Assembly (NCBI RefSeq): GCF_003342675.1
Contig: NZ_CP031148.1
Span: 1,612,001 to 1,676,000, forward strand
DNA: 64,000 nt
Direction: 5' to 3'
From: Haloplanus rubicundus
Lineage (GTDB): Archaea; Halobacteriota; Halobacteria; Halobacteriales; Haloferacaceae
The notes beneath the pieces are model-generated. The model was not told the origin of the DNA. It did not search any database and saw nothing but the letters and a program-made list of their open reading frames with translations. The position numbers and the translations under genes are program-made. This document shows positions 26,020 to 52,417 of the stretch, one piece after another; positions within the stretch are counted from its first letter, which is position 1; each line of letters begins with the position of its first letter.

Positions 26020-27411
26020 TCAGGCGACGACGTCGACGACCGCCTCGGCGTCGACGACGAGGTTGTACGCCCCCTCGTCGTCGTTCCAGAGCGCGAGGAC
26101 GTTCTCGAACTGGCACACGGCGCCGTAGTCCGCCCGCAGGAGGTCGCGGTTCAGCCCCGACTCGCGGGTCAGCACCGCGTAGTGTTCGAGTCGTTCGCTC
26201 CCGTCGCCGATTTTGAACAGCGGGTTACCGCCGTCAGCGAGGTTCCGGCTCAGCTTCACCGCCAGCAGGTCGATCCGATCCGTGACGTGATCGTCCATGT
26301 CGGCCATCCGGGCGTGTCGCGACCGGTCGGCGCGAACGTCCACCCGCCGTGTCCCGTCGGTCCGCAGGAGCGAGTAGGAGAACTTCACCGTCTCGTTGCG
26401 GAAGGTACCGGGTTCGCCGCCGGCGTCGTCGAGGCGCCGCTGAAAGCTCGGCGCGGCGATCCGGGGGCGCTCGTCGAACGACCACCCGCGGTCTTCGGGG
26501 GCCATCCCCGGCCACAGACGGAGCGTCGGAGCGTAGACGGTCACGTTCCGGCCGTCCGCGACCGCCCGTTCGACCGACCGGAGGCCCGTGCTTGTTTCGA
26601 GGTCCGCGGGCGCGATGGCGGCGAGCGTTCCGCCGTCGGCGAGGGCGTCGAGGGCGTCCTCGACGACCGGCACGGGGTCGTCGAGTTCGCTCAACACGTT
26701 CGCGCAGACGACGAGGTCGTACGGGCCGTCGAAGGCGAACGCCTCGGCGCGTTCGCGGTGGATCGTCGACCGGAAGTTCCGCCGCGTCCCGTCCAGCAAG
26801 GCGTCGAGCACGTCGGCGGCGGCGCTCGGCTCGACCGCGTGGTAGTCGACCACCGCGTCGTCGGGCAGGTAGTCGTGGAGACCGAGCGCCGGGCCGCCGA
26901 CGCCGGCGCCGATGTCGAGGACGCGGAGGTGGCGGGGGAGAAGCGACTGCTCGACCAAGTCGTCGAGGACGTAGCCGACGGCGGCGTAGTAGTCCGAGAG
27001 GTGGTAGACGGCGTAGCCGAGCGCCACCTCGTCGTCGTACTCGACGGGGTTTTGCGCGTAGTAGTCGGCCTTCAGCCGCCGGATCACCTCGCGCAGGCGG
27101 TCGCCGGAGTCGCCGCGGTGCCAGTTCGCGCCGTAGCGGCCGACGAGCAGGTCCTCCAGCGCGTGTGCGTAGCGGTCGGGGAACGCCTCCGGTTCCCATC
27201 CCGGCGCCGAGACGGGGTCGGTCTCGACCGGGACGAACGTGCCGTCCTCGCGCTCGAACAGGCCGAGGTCGTACGCCTCCTCGCGGAGGACACGCCGGAC
27301 GACCGCCGGATGTGGCTCCCCCTCGACGTACTCGGAAATCTCGTCAGGGTCGATGGGGCGGACCTGCCGCAGATACTTCGCGTTCGACCGGACGGCCTCG
27401 CGGTCGATCAT
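26020..27411 (-). CDS. Rsm22-like SAM-dependent methyltransferase
   Basis: A protein of 463 residues from ATG 27411 (MIDREAVRSNAKYLRQVRPI), which overlaps the tyrA stop as ATGA. An N-terminal helical region (1-155) precedes the Rossmann methyltransferase core with LRVLDIGAGVGGPALGL (about 170-186), HAVEPS and DLVVCANVLSELDDP. The order of elements resembles the Rsm22 family linked to the small ribosomal subunit. I see no cysteine cluster in it, so the iron-sulfur site reported for mitochondrial members is absent. rRNA is the likely target, by family only. Confidence 0.6.
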   Translation of the reverse strand: MIDREAVRSNAKYLRQVRPIDPDEISEYVEGEPHPAVVRRVLREEAYDLGLFEREDGTFVPVETDPVSAPGWEPEAFPDRYAHALEDLLVGRYGANWHRGDSGDRLREVIRRLKADYYAQNPVEYDDEVALGYAVYHLSDYYAAVGYVLDDLVEQSLLPRHLRVLDIGAGVGGPALGLHDYLPDDAVVDYHAVEPSAAADVLDALLDGTRRNFRSTIHRERAEAFAFDGPYDLVVCANVLSELDDPVPVVEDALDALADGGTLAAIAPADLETSTGLRSVERAVADGRNVTVYAPTLRLWPGMAPEDRGWSFDERPRIAAPSFQRRLDDAGGEPGTFRNETVKFSYSLLRTDGTRRVDVRADRSRHARMADMDDHVTDRIDLLAVKLSRNLADGGNPLFKIGDGSERLEHYAVLTRESGLNRDLLRADYGAVCQFENVLALWNDDEGAYNLVVDAEAVVDVVA

Positions 27412-28186: not shown

Positions 28187-28264
28187 TCATACGGCTCACT
28201 GTAACTGCGTCCCGGCGGTTCGCCGGGACGGTCCGGCGCCCCACCGGTCTGACGAACAGTATCA
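28187..28264 (-). repeat. Nested palindrome copy E
   Basis: On the minus strand it starts TGATACTGTTCGTCAG and ends TTACAGTGAGCCGTATGA. The core is ACCGGTGGGGCGCCGG then CCCGGCGAACCGCCGGG. The opening TGA is the stop codon of vapC. It lies between vapC and the start of tyrA. Confidence 0.8.
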
Positions 28265-28636
28265 GTACGGCGAAATTCGAGCCGGCGTCCGCGAGAACTC
28301 GTCCGCGTTACGCGTGACGATCGGTTGGTCTCGTGCGAGGGCGATACCGGCGATCATCGCGTCGACCGCCCCGACGGGGTGCCCGTTCTCGCGCAGGGTT
28401 CGCTGGATGTCGACGGCCCGCCGCGCGGCCTCCGCGTCGTAGGGAACGAGCGTCATCCGATCCATGGCCGCTTCGAAGCGGCGCTCCCCGTCCGACCCGC
28501 CGTCGAGACCGACGCCGACTTCGGTGTACACGAGCGTTGGCACCGCCAGCAGTTCGTCGTCGATCTCTTCGAGTTTTGCAACGGCACCCGTATCCTCGGC
28601 CAGCAGATCGATCAGAAACGACGAATCGAGAATCAT
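28262..28636 (-). CDS. vapC: VapC-family PIN-domain toxin
   Basis: A protein of 124 residues. The PIN acid residues are Asp4 in MILDSSFLIDLLAED, Glu in LVYTEVGVGL, Asp in VGAVDAMIAGIALA and Asp in VTRNADEFSRTP, a complete active site for an Mg2+-dependent RNase. Its ATG overlaps the antitoxin stop (ATGA). The stop codon coincides with the end of nested palindrome copy E. Confidence 0.92.
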   Translation of the reverse strand: MILDSSFLIDLLAEDTGAVAKLEEIDDELLAVPTLVYTEVGVGLDGGSDGERRFEAAMDRMTLVPYDAEAARRAVDIQRTLRENGHPVGAVDAMIAGIALARDQPIVTRNADEFSRTPARISPY

Positions 28637-42397: not shown

Positions 42398-42402
42398 TGA
42401 AA

Positions 42403-42482
42403 GGGTAGTTGTAGCTGTTTTCCGGCGGTTCGCCGGAACTCGTCGGCGAACCGCCGGTGATGACCTACAACGACCATTACTA
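42403..42482 (-). repeat. Nested palindrome copy F, inside the aIF2a-nop10 operon
   Basis: The minus strand starts TAGTAATGGTCGTTGTAGG and ends CAGCTACAACTACCC. The core arms CCGGCGGTTCGCC and GGCGAACCGCCGG form a 13-bp perfect inverted repeat. The leading TAG is the aIF2-alpha stop, and the other end is close to the nop10 start. A hairpin here would fall in the mRNA between two genes normally co-transcribed. Confidence 0.85.
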
Positions 42483-46535: not shown

Positions 46536-46621
46536 TCGTACGGATCGTTGTAACGGTGCTCCGATGGTTCGCCGGATCGTCGTGGCGAACCAGCGGTACG
46601 GCCTTACCACACCCCGTCTCA
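46536..46621 (-). repeat. Nested palindrome copy G
   Basis: The minus strand starts TGAGACGGGGTGTGGTAAGG and ends GTTACAACGATCCGTACGA. The inner arms are CCGCTGGTTCGCC and GGCGAACCATCGG. The first TGA is the stop codon of the double Usp gene (46619-46621). It lies before the start of dtdA. Confidence 0.8.
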
Positions 46622-51441: not shown

Positions 51442-51864
51442 ATGGCTCCCGACCCGGATCGACGGATCGCGCCGCTCGACGCCGTGCCCGCCGACACGAC
51501 GTATCTCGTCACCCTCCGCAACGGCGACGACGACCCTCGGGAGGCGGTGCTCGTTCGCACCGACGACGGCGTGGCCGGCTGGCTGAACTACTGCCGGCAC
51601 CTGCTCGACGTGCGCCTCGACAAGGGGTCGGGGGCGCCGATGCGCGACGGCGAACTCGTCTGTGCGAACCACGGCGCGTACTTCGAGGCCGACACCGGTT
51701 ACTGCACTTTCGGTCCCTGTGAGGGCGCCACCCTCGAACCCGTCGACGTCTCCGTCGTCGACGGCGACGTGTATCTGACCGACGACGACTACGCGTTCGT
51801 CGAGACGGGCGGTATCGACGACGGGAGCGCGGGACCGTCGCCCACGTCGAACTTCGAGTTCTAA
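51442..51864 (+). CDS. Rieske-type [2Fe-2S] protein, soluble
   Basis: A protein of 140 residues. The cluster ligands are Cys and His in LNYCRHLLDVRL (C-x-H) and Cys-His in LVCANHGAYFEADTG (C-x2-H). There is no membrane segment or signal, so it resembles Rieske ferredoxins and oxygenase electron carriers rather than the bc1 subunit. A second pair of cysteines (GYCTFGPCEGATL) is also typical of these. No oxygenase gene is nearby. Confidence 0.88.
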   Translation: MAPDPDRRIAPLDAVPADTTYLVTLRNGDDDPREAVLVRTDDGVAGWLNYCRHLLDVRLDKGSGAPMRDGELVCANHGAYFEADTGYCTFGPCEGATLEPVDVSVVDGDVYLTDDDYAFVETGGIDDGSAGPSPTSNFEF

Positions 51865-52162
51865 CGCTGCCAGACGTACACCACGAGCGCCAGGATTTCG
51901 CCGAAGAAAGTGAGGAAGGTGCTACTGTCGGCTGTAAGTCGATACAGATATTCGCCACCCAGAGGTGGCGAATATCTTGAAACAGTTACAGCCGACAGTA
52001 GAGTCCGCCGACGGCGAGCGCCCAGAACGCCGCCCGGTCGTCGCCGCGACTCTCCGCGTCGTTGTACACCCAGTACGTCAGCACGAAGGGGACGACCAGG
52101 AGGAGGAGGCCGATTATCAACAGCTCCGGACCGCCGGGGAGATCCATCTGAAGGGGGACCAT
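51861..52162 (-). pseudogene. Small two-helix membrane protein split by an 80-bp palindrome
   Basis: From ATG 52162 (MVPLQMDLPGGPELL) the frame runs through a helix (LLIIGLLLLVVPFVLTYWVY) and NDAESRGDDRAAFWALAVGG, then stops at TAA 51986-51988 inside the palindrome. The other side of the element continues a second helix in another frame (TFLTFFGEILALVVYVWQR, stop 51861-51863). Removing exactly bases 51922-52001 joins them as ...VGG-LTFLTFFGEIL... in one frame of about 73 residues. The gene was therefore intact before insertion. The truncated form ending YCRL may still be made. Confidence 0.8.
51922..52001. repeat. Nested palindrome copy H: 80-bp perfect double inverted repeat inserted in a gene
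   Basis: The outer arms ctactgtcggctgtaa and ttacagccgacagtag are a 16-bp perfect inverted repeat. The inner arms agatattcgccacc and ggtggcgaatatct are a 14-bp perfect inverted repeat around a 4-base loop. The spacers are 8 bases each. Shared features with the other copies are CAGTTACAG at the right arm (as in copy E) and TTCGCC/GGCGAA at the core. No target duplication is visible. Confidence 0.9.
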
Positions 52163-52342
52163 GACGGGGGCGTCTCGGTAACGGGTAGTAACTGTTGTGG
52201 GTGTGGGCGGGAGGTGGATTTGAACCACGGTCGTTCCGTTCGCTTCGCTCACTTCACTCCCTGGTTCAAATCTACTGGGCGAGTGCTCTGGCGACTGGTT
52301 CCCTCCTCGCTGCGCTCGCCGGTCACAGTCGTCGCCAGAACA
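52163..52342. repeat. tRNA 3'-end fragments in direct and inverted orientation
   Basis: Next to the tRNA, bases 52207-52228 (gcgggaggtggatttgaacc) repeat the tRNA 3' end in direct orientation, and 52259-52276 (ccctggttcaaatctact) repeat it inverted, forming a hairpin. A second hairpin covers about 52286-52340 (tctggcga ... tcgccaga). No gene lies here. These look like scars of tRNA-targeting integration. Confidence 0.6.
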
Positions 52343-52417
52343 TAGCGGGAGGTAGATTTGAACTACCGATCTCCGGGTTATGAGCCCGGCGGAATCTCCT
52401 GGCTATCCCATCCCGCT
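52343..52417 (-). tRNA. Initiator tRNA-Met (CAU)
   Basis: Read on the minus strand it is 75 bases, with acceptor arms agcggga and tcccgct plus discriminator A; CCA is not encoded. The anticodon stem-loop ccgggctcataacccgg has anticodon CAU and the three consecutive G:C pairs typical of initiators. The first pair is A1:U72, also an initiator feature. The T arm is ggtagttcaaatctacc. No intron. The region 52418-52485 between it and the GtrA gene holds nothing recognised. Confidence 0.9.

Follow-up and report, generated by a model that had tools for sequence, protein, structure and literature searches.

A palindrome inside a Haloplanus rubicundus membrane-protein gene as a member of a haloarchaeal family of probable MITE-like elements often found at stop codons

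In the 64,000-nucleotide stretch of the Haloplanus rubicundus genome analysed here (the window), a palindrome at 51922-52001 lies inside the gene of a small membrane protein, which raises the question of whether it arrived by insertion and, if so, what kind of element it is. The arm analysis confirmed the earlier description of an 80-bp palindrome with perfect 16-bp outer and 14-bp inner repeats; the two arms of 38 nt (51922-51959 and 51964-52001) showed a complementarity of 84%, and the near-perfect palindrome folded as single-stranded DNA to -32.6 kcal/mol (z = -12.9 against shuffles). Alignment of copies set the ends of the element, designated type 1, at 51923-52000 on the plus strand (78 bp, TA at both ends). 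The left terminal inverted repeat, TACTGTCGGCTGTAA (51923-51937, plus strand), is the 15 bp common to 78-bp and 108-bp elements across haloarchaea, and the right repeat was placed at 51986-52000 on the minus strand by arm analysis and copy alignment. An asymmetric internal loop is formed by GTCGATA (51938-51944, plus strand; consensus GTCAATC) and an opposing strand containing ACAG (51980-51985, plus strand), of which GTCA and ACAG are kept in types 1 and 2.

The interrupted gene is read from the minus strand. Its 5' part (52001-52162) encodes 54 amino acids with 62-85% identity to congeners, its 3' part (51861-51921) completes a joined protein that matches intact homologs, and the minus-strand ORF at 51986-52252 has its stop codon within the element. 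The broken gene overlaps tail to tail with a Rieske-like gene ending at 51864. When the 80 bp was taken out by joining 52002 to 51921, the product read MVPLQMDLPGG...AFWALAVGGLTFLTFFGEILALVVYVWQR up to the stop and aligned without a gap to the homologs in genomes G008, G009, G011, and G019, as expected from the earlier proposal of an insertion into a once-intact gene. The suggested search for the uninterrupted gene in related genomes recovered empty orthologs in five congeners (G003, G004, G008, G009, and G011), and the gene was missing beside the Rieske gene in G005. The earlier note had held that homologs with the same palindrome would speak against an insertion. One congener only, G002, carries it, interrupted at the same base as in the window genome (G000), and shared ancestry explains this case; because G002 has the same filled site, the window insertion is older than the split of H. 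rubicundus from G002. At this locus the elements of G000 and G002 (L024 in the latter) differed at 2 of 80 bases and the surrounding broken gene at 29 of 223, and such low element divergence relative to the flanks was not consistently repeated in other orthologous copies.

The insertion had been described as a clean 80 bp without target duplication. The net gain is indeed 80 bp, but the element proper, judged from other copies, comprises 78 bp. The plus strand reads GAAGG-TGA-GTCC when empty and GAAGG-TGC-(78 bp)-GA-GTCC when filled, and the net length is 80 bp (78+3-1) because one base of the usual 3-bp duplication appears to have been substituted and another lost. A decayed duplication thus appears to flank the window copy after all, as TGC (from TGA) at 51920-51922 and GA (TGA minus its T) at 52001-52002, both on the plus strand; the empty site and the family rule TNA, described below, point to this decay. 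No relative with both duplication copies intact at this locus was found among the relatives compared. In the Rfam comparison the palindrome matched no known RNA family, and only the neighbouring tRNA was significant. The tRNA gene lies at 52343-52417 (minus strand), and part of its conserved end sequence recurs ahead of it (GGGAGGTGGATTTGAAC, near 52210, within 52207-52417), possibly as the remnant of a tRNA or a scar left at an integration site.

The window copy belongs to a large repeat family. The window genome contains at least 22 type-1 copies by BLAST and 59 strand-hits by the covariance model of the subtype, and copy numbers are estimated at about 25-30 for type 1 and about 45 for a sister subtype, type 2 (80 bp, ends TACGGATTATTGTAA / TACGGTTTATTGTAA). 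Type-2 end matches numbered 44/45 in the window genome, where a reversed control pattern gave 0/1, and 106/107 in G002; over both genomes the control gave 0-2. The types have in common TA ends, the core TGTA, the asymmetric internal loop GTCA/ACAG, and the hairpin, and a 40-48 bp form is missing most of the inner stem. Overall, the elements are non-coding and 40-108 bp long, with 15-bp terminal inverted repeats kept across subtypes and genera. The 108-bp elements of Halostella, Halorussus, and Natronomonas match the 15-bp ends exactly and show the duplication too; their interiors are unrelated and without a long hairpin. Since the 108-bp class has only the 15-bp ends in common with the 78-bp class, these ends are probably the moving part and the common denominator of mobility in the family. 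Within the window itself, the covariance model also detected a type-2-like palindrome at 46539-46618 (minus strand; E = 1.5e-5), whose right flank TCA is a minus-strand stop codon, a diverged relative at 42400-42478 (minus strand; E = 8.5e-9), and a probable decayed relative with TAC...GTA ends at 28190-28267 (minus strand; E = 5e-4). A further match at 26631-26713 was set aside as chance in GC-rich coding sequence.

The wider distribution was determined by a GTDB genome scan using TNA plus the type-1 end as the query, the results of which cover the matches listed. Among these, haloarchaeal ends formed pairs, for the most part 78 or 108 bp in length, and the genera included Haloarcula, Halomicrobium, Halostella, Salinibaculum, Natronomonas, Halorussus, Halovenus, Halostagnicola, Natrarchaeobius, and others; copies were also detected on plasmids of Haloarcula, Halomicrobium, and Natribaculum. 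Bacterial end matches among those listed were unpaired and due to chance, save one Clostridiales pair. In this pair (L349), on a contig of Clostridiales bacterium DTU033, two type-1 ends with TGA flanks lie 3.6 kb apart with 3 mismatches between the ends; it is the sole long pair outside haloarchaea among the matches listed and is probably a chance occurrence. The phage records searched gave no family match.

Outside the TA ends, the copies are flanked by a 3-bp direct repeat, mostly TGA or TCA and less often TAA/TTA (rule TNA). Its direct orientation, next to a palindromic element, identifies this repeat as a duplication rather than as more of the palindrome, and its position outside the TA ends led us to reject a TA-only (IS630-like) duplication. 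All three bases agreed in 47 of 88 Haloplanus copies, and 2 of the 3 in most of the others; outside Haloplanus, 70 of 85 copies had the exact duplication. The family target, learned from copies away from recognised stop codons, is the palindromic motif GACTNAGTC. Empty sites in relatives hold a single TGA where the window genome reads TGA-element-TGA (L004 against G005; L015 against G005, G001, G010, and G011; L088 against G005 and G002). Nested insertions were also found: a type-2 copy lies at TCA within a small type-1 copy in the window genome (L082, C2:577768-577894), a similar case occurs in G002 (L083), and a third subtype sits at TGA within a type-2 copy (L226). The duplications across the 88 Haloplanus copies examined, the empty sites, and the nested insertions bear out the claim that the element is or was mobile. 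A composite transposon considered in G005 (C3) was rejected, since the copies are each flanked by a duplication of their own.

In Haloplanus, 49 of 87 copies lie directly against the stop codon of a coding-like ORF, as do 42 of 85 in other genera, and neither orientation with respect to the host gene is preferred (25:24). In a Halomicrobium urmianum plasmid record with annotated genes, the CDS ends on the base just before the element. Active targeting was suspected first, with an enzyme steered to translation stops or transcript ends beyond the preference for GACTNAGTC, as only 11% is expected if non-coding TNA sites are picked uniformly. One stop codon is occupied in both G000 and G009 by divergent copies that face opposite ways and is free of insertions in G001, G003, G005, G010, and G011; this suggests two independent insertions with reuse of good sites and fits such steering as well. 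However, the suspicion was downgraded once a null weighted by the target motif gave 44%, which leaves a slight excess (p = 0.013) over a null whose PWM may itself include unrecognised stop codons. Moreover, copies away from stop codons have the same target motif and duplication, and the nested insertions occupy non-stop TCA/TGA. Active steering is accordingly considered unlikely. We infer that target preference and purifying selection produce the placement, most of the bias arising because the target resembles the common gene end GAC-TGA and gene-breaking insertions are lost.

Two pairs of copies at gene ends were recorded besides. The half-elements L149 (G002 C7:1646432) and L161 (G000 C2:1997793), each with one terminal repeat, occupy the same TTA (a TAA stop codon) in both species, which shows that half-copies left by decay can remain at gene ends. 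The type-2 elements L079 (3216-3295) and L087, on the secondary contig of G005 (C3) and the main contig of G000 (C2), are identical over 80 bp at the same stop codon, with flanks 86-93% identical.

The stem of the hairpin covaries strongly: both partners have changed in 19 of 28 pairs, a level reached by 0 of 500 shuffles, which shows that pairing is maintained or repaired between the arms. This exceeds the need of mobility alone and, together with the lack of an intact duplication at the window copy, counts against a purely mobile nature of the palindrome. The hairpins might instead be 3'-end regulatory elements, acting as bidirectional terminators or to stabilise mRNA, that selection retains right after stop codons; the compensatory changes, the adjoining stop codon in about half of the copies, and the small excess over the motif-weighted null would agree with such a role. 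Covariation alone, however, does not imply an RNA role, because the interiors of the 108-bp elements, whose ends are the same, are unrelated and contain no long hairpin. In addition, the 3-bp duplication, the empty sites, and the nesting show insertion and not inheritance, and the window copy is located inside a gene. The few orthologous filled sites, with element identity from 100% to 64% and flanks of 85-95%, indicate no consistent constraint. A regulatory origin is therefore regarded as distinctly improbable.

No autonomous element or transposase with the family ends was found at the PF01609, PF13358, or PF01797 loci examined or among unpaired ends. The 13 unpaired type-1 ends and 5 near-matches considered as an autonomous partner turned out to be truncated or decayed copies, and the PF01609 loci fetched from five genomes showed IS5/ISH-type ends unrelated to those of the family. 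Two longer end pairs, of 763 bp in G009 (around MoaD-like genes) and of 2.15 kb in Haloarcula rara, each proved to be two separate palindromes. IS630 and rve families were absent from the window genome. That a Y1 (HUH) transposase such as RAYT moves the elements as REPIN-like single-stranded hairpins is very improbable, for although the imperfect palindromes, the conserved asymmetric loop and mismatch position, the high copy number, the lack of an autonomous copy, and the presence of Y1 genes in most of these genomes would fit, the regular 3-bp duplication indicates a staggered double-strand cut unexpected for IS200/IS605-type chemistry, G003 carries elements (though only 3 hits of type 1) and no Y1 match, and the Y1 loci fetched have no flanking element and one isolated weak end match (L379). 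The 3-bp duplication is the one feature that points to a mobilising enzyme of the DDE type.

Taken together, the palindrome is best explained, with a probability of roughly 0.85, as a MITE-like, non-autonomous DNA transposon whose family is class-wide in haloarchaea, moved by a putative enzyme that cuts with a 3-bp stagger. This explanation joins the insertion, the empty sites, the duplication, the nesting, and the spread over several genera. The putative enzyme would recognise the 15-bp ends, TACTG-N-CGGCTGTAA, and cut the palindromic target at TNA with the 3-base stagger, and insertion would leave the 3-bp duplication. Haloarchaeal genes often end in GAC-TGA, and insertion there would double the stop codon and leave the protein unchanged. 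Most host genes would thus remain whole, and copies of either orientation would collect right on stop codons. By contrast, the window copy, a rare family member that broke a gene, hit a TGA inside the membrane-protein gene (antisense) in the ancestor common with G002 and inactivated it. More tentatively, this class-wide family may have no autonomous partner at all and depend on an enzyme, resident in the host or domesticated, for which the 15-bp end suffices, with the GACTNAGTC target making insertion at stop codons harmless; because the duplication rebuilds the stop codon, stop codons would be a built-in harmless landing site.

The family resembles MITEs in being short, non-coding, and of high copy number, with terminal inverted repeats, a duplication of fixed length (3-bp TNA), presence/absence between relatives, and an intergenic bias. 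No parent transposon with these ends turned up at the loci examined, and, unlike MITEs, the family is only 40-108 bp long and is placed by its target exactly on stop codons, which get duplicated. The closest description in the literature is that of SMR-A and SMR-B of Haloquadratum walsbyi, which are about 110 or 80 bp long, have terminal repeats unrelated to known transposons and no known mobiliser, insert into other mobile elements, and reportedly produce no target duplication, SMR-A preferring palindromes of IS605-type elements (IS605/PATE) (PMC3119063). The present family is similarly haloarchaeal, of similar size, with prominent terminal repeats, no known mobiliser, and insertion into mobile elements, but the regular 3-bp TNA duplication and the location of about half of its copies at stop codons set it apart from SMRs as described. 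REPINs and REP elements with RAYTs are likewise small, palindromic, high-copy, and without autonomous copies, whereas the haloarchaeal family has a target duplication and does not flank the Y1 genes at the loci fetched. Rickettsia palindromic elements may lie in genes, and a net insertion of 81 bp would keep the frame; nearly all copies of the present palindromic family, in contrast, are at or after stop codons and not within coding sequence. Stop codons are not mentioned in a MITE review (PMC10969869), and no report of stop-codon-duplicating elements was found in the open-access literature searched; this large family has apparently been undescribed so far.

A class-wide family with a harmless site at stop codons is of more interest than a single broken gene. 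It offers a concrete, testable case of a selfish element limiting harm through insertion at, and duplication of, the stop codon. With the ends, target, and duplication defined, the question of what moves haloarchaeal small mobile repeats becomes testable. In many haloarchaeal genomes the family also bears on how genes end, how they are annotated, and how they decay.
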